64,000 nt of DNA from Flavobacteriales bacterium (GCA_020852835.1 JADZAC010000039.1:1-64000), one strand, 5' to 3'. Shown: positions 13,160-20,719, counted from the first letter of the stretch. A program made the numbers and translations. The notes: generated from the letters alone by a model not told the origin.

Positions 13160-14365
13160 TTAGGATCCGAGGTACCTCGCCGTATTGCCCACGGCGATCT
13201 TCTCAAAAGCGGGTTTGCCGATGCCGTTGATGCAGCGTTGCCACAGATCGGCCTCGGGGTCTTCGCGCAGGGTCATGAAAAAATCGGTGCCGAAGAGGAT
13301 CCGGTCGCCCAGCGGGCCGTTGATCAAGGCCGGCAGCAGCGTGTAGATGCACTTGTTGAAGAGGATGTAGGAGAGGTCGGTGTACAGGTTGGGGTACAGG
13401 AGGGTGCCGTCGGGCTGTTGCAGGCCCATGATGCGTTTCACCTCGTTGTGCCAGTTGTCGGGGTCAATGCCCCTTTTGCGCAGGGGCTGTTCGTACTTGT
13501 CCGGCAGCATCTCATCATCGCCGCCGAAGTGGGCGAAGCAGAGCTTGAGCGCGGGGTACTTGCGCAGCACGGGCTCGTAGTTCTGCGGATGCAGGAAGAT
13601 GTTGCAGCCGTATTTGCTGTCCTTCCACGTGAAGTCGTGCGCTTTGAAGGTGGCGATGCGCCGGTGGATGGCCTGCATTTCCGGGGCGCCGGGGTTGAGC
13701 CCGGAGGGCGCGGGGTCGGTGAGCACGTCGTCCATGCGGCCGGTGTAGTAGGTGCCGGTGCGGGTGCAGTGGGTCATCACCGGCACGCCGTTGGCGGCGG
13801 CCCACTGGTAGAGTGCATCGAGCCGTGCATCGAAGGGGAAGAAGCCGATGGAGGGATAGAGCTTGATGCCGAAGAAGGCGTGGCGGTCGATCTTTTCCTT
13901 CACCCAGTCGCGCAGGGCCGTGCCCCCGAGATGGCGCGGGTCCACGCCCACGAAAGGGAAGAATTCGTTGGGGTAGTGGGCGCGCACGCGCTCCACCTCG
14001 GCCAGCTGGTCTTCGATGCGGGCGTGGCGGCTGGGCTTGGTGTCCATGTGGTCCATGTTCAGCGTCAGCGCCACAAAGCGCACATCGGCGCCCATGGAGT
14101 TGTAGGCCTGTTTCATGGCCAGGAAGATCTCCTCCTGGCTGTTCTGGGTGCCTACTTCGATGAACTGCAGGTAGCGCAGCAGCTGGCTGTGGCCGCGGCG
14201 ATGGGCCAGCGCCTTGATGATGCGCCGCATCCAGCGCTTCTCCAGGAAGTACTTGATCTCCTCGGCCCAGCGGTCCGCCCAGGAGGGCAGCACCATCTTG
14301 AAGAAGTAGTCCGGGGCGCACCCGCCGGTGAAGACGTGGCTGTGTACGTTGGTGATGCGTGCCAT
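13160..14365 (-). CDS. amidohydrolase-family metal-dependent hydrolase (amidohydrolase_2 type)
   Basis: 401 residues. TIM-barrel amidohydrolase features appear in order: NVHSHVF (His8, His10), VGVDPRHLGG, GIKLYPSIGFFP (possible Lys position), VPVMTHCT, LCFAHFGGDD and ILFGTDFF (Asp near the C-terminus). This layout matches the ACMSD/amidohydrolase_2 group, which hydrolyses or decarboxylates varied substrates; the actual substrate cannot be inferred. No signal peptide. It is the last gene of a four-gene minus-strand cluster, 7 nt after the 417-residue membrane protein, so it is probably co-translated with membrane components and a predicted peptidoglycan-type peptidase. Confidence 0.8.
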   Translation of the reverse strand: MARITNVHSHVFTGGCAPDYFFKMVLPSWADRWAEEIKYFLEKRWMRRIIKALAHRRGHSQLLRYLQFIEVGTQNSQEEIFLAMKQAYNSMGADVRFVALTLNMDHMDTKPSRHARIEDQLAEVERVRAHYPNEFFPFVGVDPRHLGGTALRDWVKEKIDRHAFFGIKLYPSIGFFPFDARLDALYQWAAANGVPVMTHCTRTGTYYTGRMDDVLTDPAPSGLNPGAPEMQAIHRRIATFKAHDFTWKDSKYGCNIFLHPQNYEPVLRKYPALKLCFAHFGGDDEMLPDKYEQPLRKRGIDPDNWHNEVKRIMGLQQPDGTLLYPNLYTDLSYILFNKCIYTLLPALINGPLGDRILFGTDFFMTLREDPEADLWQRCINGIGKPAFEKIAVGNTARYLGS

Positions 14366-14372
14366 GGCGGGA

Positions 14373-15626
14373 TCAGGTGTTGCGGGCCGTGGTGGACTGC
14401 GGCTTGGGCCCGGCGCGGCGCATGTTGATGAGCTTGACCAGCAGTTCGAACCAGAAAGGTGCGCCCATGCTCAGCGAAATGGTGGTGACCCCGATGCCGG
14501 CGAGCCACATCAGCAGGTTCATCCACGACCAGCGGTTCCGTTTCTGGAAGTGATTGAGCACGGCGCGCTGCGAAGGCTTGAACTCCTTGGGCACTTCCTT
14601 CAGGCGGTCGCCGCTGAACCAGCTCCACGGCGCTTCCCCGGGGTTCCAGCCCAGGGGCAGCTGCCAGCGCCGCACCAGGTCCAGCACCTGTTCGGCCTGC
14701 CGCTGGTATTGGGTGTACTGGGTGTCGGCCAGTTGTTGCACCAGCTCGGCTTTTCGCGCTGCAGGCAAGGCCGTGGCCGAAGCTGGCGCCCCCACCGCCC
14801 GAAGCATTTGGTCAATGGGGAGCGTATCGGCGGCCGCCATCCGCTTTTGTTCCTCGTATTGGTCGCTCACCCGTTCGGCCTCTGCCACCATGCTGTTGCG
14901 CAGGTCCTGGTCCAGCAGGAACACCTTGGTGAGGTGCAGCGAATCCACGTTGAGTGCGAGGGCCACCACCAGCCCGATGATGCGCAGCTTGCGGCGCTGG
15001 TCGTCCTTGTATTCGCCCGATGCCCGGTCCATGTAGTCGTCGAACCAGCGGCCCAGTTCCTGTTTCAGGCGGTCCATGTCCAACCGCAGGTCCCCTGGGG
15101 CATTTCCGGCGTCGGGCGGCCCGTGCCGTTTGTTGCGGTCAATGAAGTTCACCATCAACCGTTTGAACTCGCTGTCGGCCAGGTTCCGCACGCCCAGTTG
15201 CAGGCGTTGGTCCAAGCCGGGGTCCCCGGCCAAGGGTCCGGCGGTGCCGTACACTTCCGGGGTCATGGTATATCGCCCGTCCTCGTCCTTCACATACTGG
15301 AATTTCACCGCTTGGTCCGCCAGGGTGTCTATCAAGGCATTGGCAAAACCTTCGGACGGTATGTAGTAGGGATAGCTGTTGCCGTCCCGCCGCATCTTGT
15401 TGATGATGGGATGCTGGTAGATGAGGTATCCGAAGTTGCGGTTCAGCGGATCATCGAGCAGCCGGTACACGGCGCGCTGCAGGAACACGCCGCGCTCCTT
15501 GATGCACTTGTTCCACGCCTCCAGCAGGATGCTCACCAGAATGCTGAGCAGCGCGTACACCAGCACCAGGGCGATGATGGTGTCCACGTACGGGCTGTTG
15601 AAGATGCCTTGGGTGACCGGGTCCAT
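14373..15626 (-). CDS. conserved membrane protein of uncharacterised family
   Basis: 417 residues. One transmembrane helix at the N-terminus (TIIALVLVYALLSILVSIL), one in the middle after DDYMDRASGEYKDDQRRK (IIGLVVALALNV), and a C-terminal pair ending SLSMGAPFWFELLVKL. The MDRxSGxYK and S(L/M)GAPFWF(D/E)LL signatures match a widespread family of membrane proteins that I remember as uncharacterised. The soluble part between helices 1 and 2 (about 190 residues) is probably cytoplasmic. An in-frame TTG at 15647 exists, but ATG 15626 is preferred. It lies between the 202-residue membrane protein (17 nt gap) and the amidohydrolase (7 nt gap), so a shared complex is plausible. Confidence 0.7.
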   Translation of the reverse strand: MDPVTQGIFNSPYVDTIIALVLVYALLSILVSILLEAWNKCIKERGVFLQRAVYRLLDDPLNRNFGYLIYQHPIINKMRRDGNSYPYYIPSEGFANALIDTLADQAVKFQYVKDEDGRYTMTPEVYGTAGPLAGDPGLDQRLQLGVRNLADSEFKRLMVNFIDRNKRHGPPDAGNAPGDLRLDMDRLKQELGRWFDDYMDRASGEYKDDQRRKLRIIGLVVALALNVDSLHLTKVFLLDQDLRNSMVAEAERVSDQYEEQKRMAAADTLPIDQMLRAVGAPASATALPAARKAELVQQLADTQYTQYQRQAEQVLDLVRRWQLPLGWNPGEAPWSWFSGDRLKEVPKEFKPSQRAVLNHFQKRNRWSWMNLLMWLAGIGVTTISLSMGAPFWFELLVKLINMRRAGPKPQSTTARNT

Positions 15627-15643
15627 GTCGATCGGTGTTGGGT

Positions 15644-16252
15644 TCAATCCTTTTTCTTGGTGCGCACGGTGCGCCCGGCGATGGCCTGCACCAGGTCCTC
15701 CAGGCGGGTGGGGTCGTAGCCCAAAGCGAAGGAGAGCGTGCTGAGCAGGCCGGCCAAGCGGGTGAACTGTTCGGCCGTGGGTGCGGAAAAGGGCTCGCTG
15801 GTGATCAGCAGCATCCCGCTCACCGAAGTGATGTACACCAGGAAGCCGCGCAGCATGCTGTGCAAGGGCTGTTCATGGAGGTAGTCCGCGCGTAGCTCGA
15901 AGCGCTCCGCTTTTTCGCTATCGCCTTCTTCCTGTGCTTTCGCAATGCGCCGGGCCAGGCCCTTGAGCGTTTGCACCCGGCTGCTGCAGCCGCCGATCAG
16001 CGCGGCCAGCACGCACAGCATGGCCACATTGGTGGGGGTATAGGTGAACGTGGCCTGCACCAGGTTGGTCCAGCTGGCGGAGCCGCTGGTGATGGCCGTG
16101 CGGTAGGGGTTGGGATCAATAAGCAGCCCCAGGGAGAAGAGCGCCACCCATGCCAGCAAGGCGATGAACCCCAGCAAGGCGTACGCATTGCGGGTGGCCG
16201 TGCTGTCGGGGCTGCGGCCAAGCACTGTGTATCCGTGGTTTTGGGCGGCCAT
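15644..16252 (-). CDS. small membrane protein, unknown function
   Basis: 202 residues. Hydrophobic helices are visible at about 26-46 (LLGFIALLAWVALFSLGLLI), 74-92 (NVAMLCVLAALIGGC) and 133-152 (MLRGFLVYITSVSGMLLI). A charged, probably cytoplasmic linker (RIAKAQEEGDSEKAERFE) sits between helices two and three. A motif GYDPTRLEDLVQAI follows the last helix and the tail is Lys-rich. I do not recognise the family. It starts 12 nt after the TIGR02594 gene and ends 17 nt before the next membrane protein, so it belongs to the same transcription unit. Confidence 0.62.
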   Translation of the reverse strand: MAAQNHGYTVLGRSPDSTATRNAYALLGFIALLAWVALFSLGLLIDPNPYRTAITSGSASWTNLVQATFTYTPTNVAMLCVLAALIGGCSSRVQTLKGLARRIAKAQEEGDSEKAERFELRADYLHEQPLHSMLRGFLVYITSVSGMLLITSEPFSAPTAEQFTRLAGLLSTLSFALGYDPTRLEDLVQAIAGRTVRTKKKD

Positions 16253-16264
16253 GCGCGGAGTGCT

Positions 16265-16906
16265 TCATGCGTGCCAACGGTGGTCGATCAGGTCGGCCGA
16301 TGGGTAGTTGCCGATGCACACGCGGTTGCCCTGGTTGCCGCCCAGCACATGGATCCGGTTGCCGATCTGTTCCAGGAAGAAGGCCACATGCCCAGCGGCG
16401 GGGTTGCCCGGCACCTGCCGCCGGAACACGGTGATGCAGCCCAGGCGCGGCTGTGGCAAATGCACGCCCCAACGGGCCCAACTGCGTGCCAATGCACTTC
16501 CGGTGCCCGGCACGGTTGCCTGCAGCATGCACCAGTTCACAAAGCTGCTGCACCAGGGCGTTTCATCATCGGAGGCGTGCAGGCTGGTGGCCTGGTGGTA
16601 TTGCACGATGCGCGGGTTGTGCCGCGATCCCGTGTACTCGTGCACGCCCATCTCGGCGCGGGCAACGGCCAGCCATGGTGGTTCCACAAGCACTTGCACC
16701 GGGTCCAGTGGTTCCACATGGTCCGCGCTCACCCAGCCGGTGAGCTCCCCGTCGAGCAGATCGGCATTTACGCGCAGCCACCCGCCCGTGGGGCCTTGAA
16801 GCGCCTGCAGCAAGGTGCCACGGGGCAAGCGGCCGATGATGCGGTGGTCCGTGCCGGGGCCGCTGCGCAGGCGCAGCACGGAGGCAGTGGTGCGGTAGGC
16901 GGGCAT
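16265..16906 (-). CDS. SH3b plus TIGR02594-family (NlpC/CHAP-like) peptidase
   Basis: 213 residues. Residues 4-65 form an SH3b domain (LRLRSGPGTDHRIIGRLPRG... GWLRV... GWVS). The rest is a TIGR02594 domain with TPWCSSFVNWC (catalytic Cys119), GTGSALARSWARWG, GCITVFRR, GHVAFFLE (His173) and LGGNQGN. Family members are NlpC/P60-like cysteine peptidases or amidases presumed to act on peptidoglycan. No signal peptide is seen, which is odd for a wall enzyme; export may rely on the membrane proteins encoded next or on another system (inference). It is the first gene of a four-gene operon. Confidence 0.8.
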   Translation of the reverse strand: MPAYRTTASVLRLRSGPGTDHRIIGRLPRGTLLQALQGPTGGWLRVNADLLDGELTGWVSADHVEPLDPVQVLVEPPWLAVARAEMGVHEYTGSRHNPRIVQYHQATSLHASDDETPWCSSFVNWCMLQATVPGTGSALARSWARWGVHLPQPRLGCITVFRRQVPGNPAAGHVAFFLEQIGNRIHVLGGNQGNRVCIGNYPSADLIDHRWHA

Positions 16907-17077: not shown

Positions 17078-17911
17078 CTATCGCTTGATGAACGGCCGGG
17101 TTTCCACCCGGTCGGCATAGCGCAGCTGCACCATGTAGGCGCCTGCAGGCAACATGCCCACCTCCAAGGTGATCTGGCCCGTAGCATCGGGCAGGCCCGG
17201 CAGGCCGGCTTCCACTGCTTGGCCTGCCGCGGTCAGCACGCGCAATTCCCCAACACCGGTAAGTCCGGTGAGCTTCACCTCTTCGGTGGCGGGGTTGGGG
17301 AAGAGGGAGATGGCGTTCCCGCTGGTCCCAAGGTCGGGGATCACGGTGGTGGTGCCGGTGTCGCCGGCGTTGATCGCCGTGCCCGGGAGGCTTTCGTAGG
17401 CATAGGCCTTCACCAAGGTGGTGTTGGTTTCCATCTTCAGCTCGATCCAGCCGTAATAGGTGTTGCCATCGTCCTGGAAGCGCACGCCCAAAAAGCCGCT
17501 GGGATTGCCGAAGGCCCATTGACCGTAGGAATAGAAGCTCACCAACCAACCTTGGGCGTCATTGCGCCAATCGGGATCGCCGGGTGCAATGGGGTCCCCG
17601 TTTTCCAAGCGGTCGGGGAACATGTTGTTGCTGTAATACAACCCCAGCACGCTTACGCCAGGGGCTTGGTCCGTGATGCCCACGTAGTGCATGGAGCCGA
17701 ACTCGGTGCGCGTGATCTCCAGCTCCACCGTTCCGTCGTTATTGATGTCCACGCCGTAGGTGGAGAAGGATACCTCCACGTCGGGGTCCAAGTCGGTGTG
17801 GATGATCTGGGCGTCGGCTTCCGGGGCCGTTGCCAGAAAGGCCAGCGCCATGCCGGGGTAGGCGAGCTTGTCGGGGATGGCGGTTTTTCTGCAGGGTACA
17901 TGTGCACGCAT
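17078..17911 (-). CDS. secreted T9SS protein, paralogue of 21249-22100
   Basis: 277 residues. A signal-like N-terminus ends in EADAQ. The mature part opens IIHTDLDPDVEVSF followed by DINNDGTVEL, an EF-hand/dockerin-like calcium loop pattern. A YYGWIELK motif follows in mid-protein. The C-terminus is a T9SS type A domain (LFPNPATEEVKLTGL ... FIKR). The same order of signal, DPDV, D-x-D-x-DGTV-x-L and YGWVEL is found in the gene at 21249. Function unknown; extracellular calcium-binding adhesin or matrix protein is a guess. Start ATG 17911; a TACCTTCG promoter-like site lies about 40 nt upstream (17953-17960). Confidence 0.72.
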   Translation of the reverse strand: MRAHVPCRKTAIPDKLAYPGMALAFLATAPEADAQIIHTDLDPDVEVSFSTYGVDINNDGTVELEITRTEFGSMHYVGITDQAPGVSVLGLYYSNNMFPDRLENGDPIAPGDPDWRNDAQGWLVSFYSYGQWAFGNPSGFLGVRFQDDGNTYYGWIELKMETNTTLVKAYAYESLPGTAINAGDTGTTTVIPDLGTSGNAISLFPNPATEEVKLTGLTGVGELRVLTAAGQAVEAGLPGLPDATGQITLEVGMLPAGAYMVQLRYADRVETRPFIKR

Positions 17912-18067
17912 GTTATTGCAGGTTTTGGGGTTGAACGGATCGCCAACGAGAACGAAGGTAATGCCATCACGGCGGTAGGGTGATCTTCTTCTTGTCGGCT
18001 GGACTTCGTCCGGTGTGCTTTGTGGAAGGGCTTGTAGCACACCGCTGGGGCCAGGGTGCCTATTAAT

Positions 18068-20719
18068 TCATGTGCCCGAACGTTCGCGGTAGAGCGCCGG
18101 GTCCACCGCTTGGGCCATGGCAGCCACGTCCAAGGTGGTGCCGAGGAATGCGTTGACCCGCTTCATCGCGGTGAGCGGGTCGGTGATCACTTCGCCATAG
18201 GGCACGCGGATCATGTCCACGTTGGGGCATTGCTCCCGCCAGCGCTCCACCCTGCGCAGCTGCTCATGGAAGGCATGGTGCAGGCCCAGCGGATAGGTTT
18301 TGGCTTTTGCCTCCTTTCCGAGGCGCGCCAGCATGCGCCGCTGGGAGCCGATCACTTCTTCGATCCCGCGTTCCATGAAGACCACCTTGTAGTGGTAGCG
18401 TGGTTGCAGGTAGGGCAGCAACGGGGCTACCACCTTCACCACTTTACCTACGGCCTGTTCCAGGAAGCTGGCGTCGCGGGCCAAGCCCTTCACGGCGGCG
18501 TGCTCCAAGTAGCCTTTCGGGTTGTTGGCGTCCGCCGGGCGCCGGTCATCGGTGAAGGGCGTGAGCCCTGCGGCCACCAGGGCCTGCATCATCATGGAGG
18601 TGCCCGAGCGCGGAAGGCCGGACACCACGGTGATGACGTGGGGCGCCGTCCTTTCACCCACTTCCCTGCGCAGGGCCTCGGCCTTGGCCGGTTCACCCAA
18701 GTGATCTTGGTAGAGGCTGGCCAGTTGCAGGCGCGCCCGGTTGGTCCCCGGGGCCATCTTCAGGCAAACGGCATAGGCCTGCGCGGCATCGGCATAGCGG
18801 CCCAATTGCGTAAACGCCTCGCCCAGGTGGTAATGGGCAAAGGGCCGGTGGAAGTTCAGCCCGATGCCGTGCAGGATCTCCTGTGCGGCGCGTTCCGCAT
18901 CGCCGTTGCGCAGGTGCGCGAGGCCCAGCCCGTAGTACGCTTGTTCCGCCTGGGGGTCGTAAGTGATCGCCCGTTCGAACGCCGTGATCGCACGCGGCCA
19001 TTGTTTGGCCTTCAGCAAGGCGTAGCCGCATCGCAACTGCACCTTATCGCCGTATGCGGGGTCCAGGGCCATGCGTTCCAGCAGGGCGATCGCTTCTTTG
19101 GTGCGTTGCTCGCCTTGCAGCACGGCGGTCTCCAACAGGCGCAGCGCAGGTTCCTCCCGGTAAGGGCCCGGGTCCTTGGGCGGTGGGGCGTCCGGCCGGT
19201 CCTTCGGCGGCATAGCGGCCAGCTGCTTTTGGCGCGCTTCCTCATGGGCCCTCGCCCGGGCCGTGCGCATCTTCTCCAACGTGGCGCGTGCTTCGGGCGC
19301 TTTGCCCAGCCGCAGTTGGCATTGGGCCAATTGCTGGCCGTAGCGCAACTGGTCCGGTGCGGCGGCAAAGAGCTCCTCGAACAGCGCCAAGGCTTCCGGA
19401 TGGCGGCCGCCGTCCACGTAAGCGCGTGCCAGGAAGTAGCGGTTCTCCTGCACCGTGCGCACGCTGGCCTGTTCGGGGTCTTCGCCGGGGTCTTCCACAT
19501 AGCCCAGGTCCACCAGTTGTTGCAGGGATCCGCGGTCCATGTCCGAAACCGCGTCGGCGGCTTTGTTGCGGGGGTGCATGCCGCAATCACCGGCCACCTC
19601 TTCCCAGGAGGGGATCACCTCGATCTTGGGCGGCTGTTCGAAGATGTCCAGCAGCGGCCGCCCGTCCATGTCGCTCGCTATGGGCAGGCCGAAGAGGGTG
19701 AGCAGGGTGGGGGTGATGTCCAGCAGGCTTGCGCCGTGCACCAGTTCATCTTGTTTGATGCCCGGCCCCTTGATGCAGAAGATGCCGTAAGGGCTGTGCT
19801 CGTAAGCCGGCCCGGCGGGCTCGCGGGGCAAGGCGCTGGGCCGCAGGTGGTCCGGGTGGAAGCCATGGTCGGAAAGCAGCAGCACGGTGGCCTCGGGGCC
19901 GGCCAGGTCCAACAGTCGCCCCAGCATCAGGTCGTGGAAACGGTAGGCCGCGGTGACCACGCCCTTGTACAGATTGAACTCGCGCTCCGGGATGTAGGGC
20001 CGCCGGGGCGGGTGGAATTTCATGAAGCCGTGCTTGAAGTGGTCGATGGCGTCGTAGTACACGCCCATAAAATCCCATTCCTCCCGCTCCAGCAGGTAGG
20101 TGGCGGCGGCATGCACCGTGGAACAATCGGCCAGTACGCGGGCTATGGAGTTGAGCCCCCGTTCCTTGTCCTGGTCCACCTGCGCGAAGTCCGGTACAAA
20201 GGGTGCGATGTGGGCGGCGGTGAGCTCCGCCGGGTGGATCCGCAGCCGCGCGAATTCCGCGCCGCGTTCTGCCGGATGCACGGTGCCTTCCCGCAGGGGC
20301 CAGGGTTCATTGATCGGCTGGTGTGCGCGCTGGTAGAAATTGCTCACCATCACCCCGTTGATGGGCTCGGCCGGATGGCTCGGCCACCAGCCCAGCACAT
20401 GGGTGCGTTTCTTTTCCTGCGTCAGGATGTTCCAGATGGCTTTTACGCGGCGGTGCACGTTGGTGACCGGGCGCACGGTCTTGCCGTCGGGGCCGGTTTC
20501 AGTGAAGCCCAGGATGCCGTGCTTATAGGGCCGCTTCCCCGTGGCAATGGAGGTCCACAGCATGGGGGACAGGGGCGGGTCCAAGGTGGCCAGGCGCCCG
20601 CGCACGCCGCCGCTCACCAGCTTTTCCAAGTTCGGCATCAGGCCCGCGTCCATCAGCGGGTCGATCGCTTTCCAGTCGGCGGCGTCCCAACCGATCACCA
20701 GCACCTTACGCTTGGCCAT
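18068..20719 (-). CDS. alkaline-phosphatase-superfamily phosphodiesterase fused to TPRs and a sulfotransferase
   Basis: 883 residues with three parts. Residues 1-400 resemble type I phosphodiesterase/nucleotide pyrophosphatase: VIGWDAADW (metal Asp12), SPMLWTSIATG (nucleophile Thr56), YYDAIDHFKHGF and LLLSDHGFHPDHL. Residues about 410-690 are tetratricopeptide repeats (AYYGLGLAHLRNGDAERA, HYHLGEAFTQLGRYADAA). Residues about 692-883 are a sulfotransferase domain with the PAPS 5'-phosphosulfate loop SGLPRSGTSMM. No signal peptide, so probably cytoplasmic. The substrate is unknown. The fusion suggests that transfer and removal of a sulfate or phosphate ester are coupled on one protein (inference). 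It overlaps the 70-residue gene upstream by 14 nt, which suggests coupled translation. Confidence 0.85.
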   Translation of the reverse strand: MAKRKVLVIGWDAADWKAIDPLMDAGLMPNLEKLVSGGVRGRLATLDPPLSPMLWTSIATGKRPYKHGILGFTETGPDGKTVRPVTNVHRRVKAIWNILTQEKKRTHVLGWWPSHPAEPINGVMVSNFYQRAHQPINEPWPLREGTVHPAERGAEFARLRIHPAELTAAHIAPFVPDFAQVDQDKERGLNSIARVLADCSTVHAAATYLLEREEWDFMGVYYDAIDHFKHGFMKFHPPRRPYIPEREFNLYKGVVTAAYRFHDLMLGRLLDLAGPEATVLLLSDHGFHPDHLRPSALPREPAGPAYEHSPYGIFCIKGPGIKQDELVHGASLLDITPTLLTLFGLPIASDMDGRPLLDIFEQPPKIEVIPSWEEVAGDCGMHPRNKAADAVSDMDRGSLQQLVDLGYVEDPGEDPEQASVRTVQENRYFLARAYVDGGRHPEALALFEELFAAAPDQLRYGQQLAQCQLRLGKAPEARATLEKMRTARARAHEEARQKQLAAMPPKDRPDAPPPKDPGPYREEPALRLLETAVLQGEQRTKEAIALLERMALDPAYGDKVQLRCGYALLKAKQWPRAITAFERAITYDPQAEQAYYGLGLAHLRNGDAERAAQEILHGIGLNFHRPFAHYHLGEAFTQLGRYADAAQAYAVCLKMAPGTNRARLQLASLYQDHLGEPAKAEALRREVGERTAPHVITVVSGLPRSGTSMMMQALVAAGLTPFTDDRRPADANNPKGYLEHAAVKGLARDASFLEQAVGKVVKVVAPLLPYLQPRYHYKVVFMERGIEEVIGSQRRMLARLGKEAKAKTYPLGLHHAFHEQLRRVERWREQCPNVDMIRVPYGEVITDPLTAMKRVNAFLGTTLDVAAMAQAVDPALYRERSGT

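Follow-up and report, generated by a model that had tools for sequence, protein, structure and literature searches.

An apparently undescribed kind of bacterial operon: an uncharacterised membrane protein with interchangeable hydrolases that lack export signals

In cassettes of the type X secretion system (T10SS), a membrane protein can admit a wall hydrolase that has no signal peptide (a leaderless enzyme). The TIGR02594 and DUF2235/Tle1 families are effector classes of the type VI secretion system (T6SS) (PMC13055248), and protease-activated bacterial immunity includes bacterial gasdermins and nuclease-protease pairs (PMC12799240). Here we analyse a locus with likenesses to each of these systems. 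It lies in a 64,000-nucleotide stretch of DNA from a Flavobacteriales bacterium (GCA_020852835.1 JADZAC010000039.1:1-64000; this whole stretch is hereafter the window), whose genome comprises 3.44 Mb in 96 contigs; both the T9SS (type IX secretion system) marker and the relatives found through P3 (see below) point to Bacteroidota. The locus has six minus-strand genes, which we call P1 to P6, and a plus-strand gene, P7, that faces them; its central element is the membrane protein P3.

Like T10SS and holin-endolysin-spanin cassettes, the P3 loci place a membrane protein beside a leaderless peptidoglycan hydrolase, sometimes with an outer-membrane component, but P3 has about 420 amino acids (aa) and a large part predicted to be cytosolic, is not phage-derived by the tests run, and has lipases, proteases and metal hydrolases among its partners. 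With T6SS effectors (TIGR02594, Tle1/DUF2235 and Amidase_2 types) the loci share leaderless enzymes of the same classes, whereas what stays constant beside them is a membrane protein and not VgrG/PAAR, and the hosts tested have no T6SS core. As in protease-activated immunity, one family (that of P6) recurs with proteases of unrelated folds (S8, trypsin and MOA-type), but P6 is predicted to be secreted, and we found no nuclease or gasdermin match and no immune core gene. Two of the enzymes have relatives of their own. P4 has the fold family and metal ligands of the Amidohydro_2 (ACMSD-like) metal hydrolases but forms a distinct subfamily tied to P3. P5 shares the Agglutinin_C domain and the Cys-His-Glu active site of the chimerolectins MOA and PSL; it differs in being bacterial and stand-alone, a protease domain only, without the N-terminal ricin-type lectin domain and in an operon with P6.

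Such operons, which combine an uncharacterised inner-membrane protein with interchangeable leaderless hydrolases of wall, lipid or protein, are apparently both widespread and undescribed. The pairing, the exchange of partners, the fusions and the missing leaders are all computational observations. A first-pass annotation of the window had stated that no known system joins P1 to P4, and our literature search agrees with it: no paper joining these genes was found, and none of the passages on conflict systems in the lipocone paper describes P3.

A constant membrane protein and its dedicated partner

P3 (14373-15647 from a TTG start, or from 15626 with an ATG start) is a predicted inner-membrane hub of 424 aa in the TTG version, with three transmembrane helices and the conserved motifs MDRxSGxYK and SxGAPFWF. 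Neither P3 nor its neighbour P2 matches any Pfam or NCBIfam family above cut-off. Because the charges at the helix ends favour an N-out/C-in orientation, the C-terminal tail of P3, and the enzymes fused to it in some homologues, would face the cytosol. The structure model of P3 is confident (predicted local distance difference test, pLDDT, 89.5).

Relatives of P3 were found in at least 545 stretches in a scan of 84,980 species. The loci analysed below are the best 80 of these, chosen by similarity to the P3 of the window, and a second set of 30 regions from a census of the class, some of which repeat loci of the first set; related loci are not independent. Genes were called with a simple open reading frame (ORF) rule, and many of the compared genomes are metagenome-assembled genomes (MAGs). 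The distribution is patchy and covers many phyla: P3 is present in 36 of 395 genomes drawn evenly across the class, in 7 of the 97 relatives examined, and in only 5 of 44 genomes of the same genus besides that of the window. In the P3 tree, many forks of which are weakly supported, copies linked to P4 group together, and those of Glaciecola and of a Thalassobius MAG are nested within Bacteroidota. This nesting, together with the patchy spread, suggests horizontal transfer of P3.

P4 (13160-14365, 401 aa) directly follows P3. It matches Amidohydro_2 at 1.5e-15 (58.2 bits against a Pfam cut-off of 26.4), and the metal motifs previously described as intact are so (HxH, H, H and D, corresponding to H8, H10, H199, H279 and D361). 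Six of the seven P3-bearing relatives also have P4 directly after P3; the other one, G028, is cut off inside P3 by the end of its contig. Across all loci, the 31 nonduplicate P3-P4 pairs have gaps between -38 and +43 nt, and the distance matrices of the two proteins are highly correlated (Mantel r 0.86, with 0 of 2000 permutations as high). Strong P4 matches (above 250 bits) occur 14 times in the 395 genomes of the class, 13 of them adjoining P3 (Fisher 4e-14). P4 is thus a dedicated partner of P3, and the two alone are a frequent two-gene unit. The first-pass annotation had asked whether homologues of its four genes lie mostly apart or only in close relatives. That comparison was made, and the order P3-P4 is fixed in Bacteroidota, in Glaciecola and in the Thalassobius MAG; the cluster is not fortuitous, because the pair keeps its order in other families and phyla.

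Interchangeable hydrolases and additional modules

The genes directly beside P3 (123 adjacent genes) include matches to PG_binding_1 (9), M15 (6), S8 (5), Amidase_2 (5) and, with three each, Tle1, patatin, papain C1, M19, GH46 and CHAP. Leaving PG_binding_1 aside, these families make 34 matches; among 123 control genes at least six places from P3, C1 has two and each other such family at most one among the families listed, a control tally that covers the top 25 families and may hide single matches. Vanadium haloperoxidase/PAP2, a phospholipase-type phosphoesterase, a DUF900 hydrolase, TIR and SIR2 were seen once or twice beside P3; the TIR (PF10137, locus L055) and the SIR2 (locus L088) are known defence effectors. 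In the class-census regions, the neighbours are P4, S8, P6, P7, GH46, papain, CHAP, patatin, Amidase_2 and DUF900. An N-terminal hydrophobic segment is missing from nearly all hydrolases tested, and likewise from P1, P4, P5 and P7. In some loci the partner is part of P3 itself: its C-terminus is fused to Lipase_3 (a class-3 lipase, 9.7e-27) in L088 and to trypsin-like domains bearing GDSGA or GDSGS in L082, L142, L159 and L161. The P3 of the window has the proposed features of a hub, i.e., a P3 core with an adjacent or fused leaderless hydrolase, through P4 and P1. Large membrane proteins were also observed near hydrolase loci with P3 or P6 (L134:1662-5243, L102:12597-15260, L144, L147 and L179); two of them have a weak match to a dCache sensor domain and are possible trigger sensors.

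The four ORFs P1 to P4 (16906-13160) are real genes: their GC content at third codon positions (GC3) is 0.82-0.90, as in true genes of this region of the window. The reported gaps of 7-17 nt stand, with 12 nt between P1 and P2, 17 nt between P2 and the ATG of P3, and 7 nt between P3 and P4; P2 and P3 overlap by 4 nt if P3 starts at the TTG. The idea that these four genes make up the unit was not borne out, since P5 and P6 extend the operon on the same strand (gaps of 96 nt and 11 nt) and the P7 family recurs in such loci. The locus is a composite of the modules P3-P4, P1-P2, P5-P6 and P7. A scan for promoters and terminators gave nothing better than shuffled sequence.

P1 (16265-16906, 213 aa) matches SH3_3 (5.8e-13), CHAP (3.8e-8) and TIGR02594 (1.9e-38; 131.8 bits against an NCBIfam cut-off of 70.55). 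As annotated before, it is a predicted cysteine peptidase of the TIGR02594 type with Cys119 and His173, and lacks a signal peptide. By its sequence it resembles phage endolysin and tail-lysozyme families; a profile iteration from P1 drifted to peptidoglycan-binding proteins and was discarded. P2 (15644-16252, 202 aa) is a predicted three-helix membrane protein with a GYDPTRLEDL motif. Three or more distinct lineages of P3 have P1 as a neighbour. The complete order P1-P2-P3-P4 was seen in the window only; congener G028 has P1-P2-P3 up to its contig end and another congener P1-P3-P4. In congener G003 a single operon holds P1, a relative of P2, a DUF900-like hydrolase and P7, with no P3 match. 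P7 (8580-10337), an amidohydrolase-superfamily protein, is M19-like (19.5 bits against Peptidase M19, below the Pfam cut-off of 26), and its family recurs beside P3-P4, beside P3 with other hydrolases, and beside P1-P2.

P5 (12629-13063, 144 aa) matches Agglutinin_C (39.2 bits, cut-off 26.8) and the cysteine-protease domain at the C-terminus of two fungal lectins, PSL (3phz, 9.4e-8) and MOA (2iho, 6.4e-4); its C66, H107 and E123 align with the active-site residues C215, H257 and E274 of MOA. A relative was found in just one other of the 395 genomes, with a broken frame, also directly before P6. P6 (10491-12617 from an ATG, about 708 aa) has an N-terminal signal-like sequence, a helical N-terminal part and a C-terminal region resembling a beta-barrel; most members of its family that were tested have an N-terminal hydrophobic segment. 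Its model, built on a shallow alignment (pLDDT 55), weakly resembles small outer-membrane barrels, and P6 is probably located in the outer membrane. The genes preceding P6 relatives encode S8 proteases, mostly with an SH3-like domain (12 loci), trypsin-like proteins or P3-trypsin fusions (4), and P5 (2). P6 and P3 co-occur, with 14 of the 23 P6 genomes carrying P3 (Fisher 9e-11, 395 class genomes). GC3 is lower in P5 (0.69) and P6 (0.63) than in the other genes of the cluster, so this module may have arrived later. Two further observations concern the P6 family: a caspase-like protein is read divergently beside a P6 relative in a locus without P3 (L178:7392-9299), and a longer subfamily (about 940-1120 aa; L184-L187, L190, L191) has no recognised protease neighbour.

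Directly upstream of P1, on the same strand, lies a gene for a protein with a T9SS type A sorting domain (17078-18040), apparently unrelated to the cluster. Further upstream is a gene for an 883-aa protein (18068-20719, also minus strand) that combines a type I phosphodiesterase/nucleotide pyrophosphatase, tetratricopeptide (TPR) repeats and a sulfotransferase domain and has strong relatives in few congeners; a search of this right flank in relatives gave few copies only.

Tails of P3 and a possible docking code

P3 copies linked to P4 have a short tail after the third helix. Where the partner bears an N-terminal SH3-like domain, 10 of 15 P3 copies end in [AVIP][VAIP]G(Q), compared with 0 of 105 P3 copies in other loci and 9 of 2039 proteins other than P3; the motif was selected after the tails were seen. 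Under a looser rule (tail ending in G), the association with partner type has a Fisher p of 9e-10. P3s linked to Amidase_2 and M15 have tails of other kinds. We treat the correlation between tail and partner as a lead and not as a result.

Some individual copies deserve mention. One of the nine proteins other than P3 with the motif is a P3-unrelated membrane protein ending in APAVG, whose gene has a papain gene on one side and SH3/S8/P6 genes on the other (L179:8096-8779). In sister P3s of Caballeronia, the copy with an Amidase_2 partner (L096) has a DLPxAxGGV tail and the other (L012) has neither. The tails of three Nitrosomonas P3s (L074, L084, L089) and of L059 resemble a PG_binding_1 domain, on the presumed cytosolic side.

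One tentative proposal, to which we give rather little credence, is that P3 represents an undescribed class of membrane hubs arming bacteria with swappable cytosolic hydrolases through a docking code, either a partner-specific tail signal or a fusion. The code might read [AV]VG-COOH for a partner whose N-terminus is an SH3-like domain, DLPxAxGGV for Amidase_2 and a W..G..EGVL type for M15, and the same slot could be open to unrelated membrane proteins, such as that of L179 beside its SH3-domain/subtilase pair.

What the P3 operons may do

Where the membrane protein stays constant and its leaderless, potentially self-harming enzymes vary, an effector module that is anchored or gated is a better fit than metabolism. 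P3 would be the constant inner-membrane part of a family of modular operons that move horizontally, and would anchor, restrain or gate swappable hydrolases made without an export signal. In the window, the obligate partner P4 would be accompanied by P1-P2, a leaderless wall peptidase with a membrane partner of its own, and by P5-P6, a leaderless protease with a secreted, probably outer-membrane protein. Envelope damage or infection, for instance, might serve as the signal that frees or admits the hydrolases, whose targets would be the wall, membrane and proteins of the cell itself. The topology, anchoring, trigger, target and purpose of this arrangement we infer. Use in conflict or programmed lysis seems to us the likeliest, at somewhat below even chances. 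In its favour we count the enrichment of envelope-, lipid- and protein-degrading enzymes beside P3, their missing leaders, the fusions at the predicted cytosolic end, the P3-P4 pairing, the co-occurrence of P6 with P3, the tails that differ with the partner, the TIR and SIR2 partners and the signs of transfer. The earlier suggestion of a membrane-bound toxin or wall-remodelling module is a fair one; wall action fits P1, but many other partners of P3 are lipases or proteases.

Several observations weigh against this reading. The searches for a fold match to P3 gave nothing confident (Foldseek no hit below E 0.2; best Z of a second look 3.5) and hence no sign of a pore or a binding site. P4 and P7 are metal hydrolases of small-molecule type and not obvious killers, and P1-P2 and P6 are also found without P3. 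None of the seven window proteins has a PADLOC match, genes beside P3 give no more PADLOC hits than control genes do, and no defence island is visible around the cluster. When ancestry is allowed for by comparing independent pairs, the link between tail and partner is not significant (about 4:0, median p 0.125), and the P3 of the window has no such partner-type tail.

The main rival is a T10SS-like export or lysis device, in which P3 (and P2) would pass P1 to the peptidoglycan and P6 would complete passage of the outer membrane, with or without lysis. The endolysin-like character of leaderless P1 and of the amidase and M15 partners of P3, and the resemblance of P6 to outer-membrane proteins, speak for it; we nevertheless consider it unlikely. 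P3 is far above holin size, has no holin match in Pfam, NCBIfam or PHROGs, and occurs in none of 50,697 phage records and on a single IMG/VR contig; fused lipases and trypsins are improbable as exported cargo, and P3-P4 alone includes no wall hydrolase. A role of P3 as a phage lysis gene was rejected on its absence from phage records. Envelope upkeep would have P4 and P7 process small molecules derived from wall or lipid while P1, P5 and P6 trim wall or envelope proteins at the membrane. Such a role is in keeping with two amidohydrolase-superfamily enzymes and a wall peptidase sharing a locus, with the frequency of the P3-P4 unit and with the lack of a defence island, but the patchy spread (36/395 and 5/44, as given above) and the swapping of partners are unlike housekeeping, and leaderless wall enzymes cannot reach the peptidoglycan unaided; it is no likelier than export.

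A further reading is that of antagonism effectors delivered by a T6SS or an extracellular contractile injection system (eCIS), with immunity or loading provided by P3 or P2. It would account for the partner types that belong to T6SS effector classes, TIGR02594 and DUF2235/Tle1 among them. One P3 family common to unrelated hydrolases is, however, unlike immunity proteins, and neither the T6SS sheath VipB/TssC (PF05943) nor, above cut-off, the phage-type sheath PF04984 occurs in the genome of the window or in the seven P3-bearing relatives (0 of 8 genomes for each). With these core genes not found in the eight hosts, we rejected a T6SS or eCIS origin and hold this explanation to be highly improbable. 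Chance juxtaposition of unrelated genes could be argued from the full four-gene order being confined to the window; the census, the co-evolution of P3 and P4 and the recurrence of each module refute it for P3-P4 and make it extremely improbable overall.

If the reading of P3 as an anchor or gate is true, hundreds of genomes in many phyla would store lytic enzymes in the cytosol coupled to one constant membrane protein. They would help to explain how cells hold leaderless wall hydrolases, lipases and proteases in a harmless state and later put them to use, and the docking code would be open to a simple tail-swap test. Three groups of proteins acquire a genomic setting as well: a large membrane family absent from Pfam, an amidohydrolase subfamily dedicated to P3, and the stand-alone bacterial version of a fungal lectin's protease domain.
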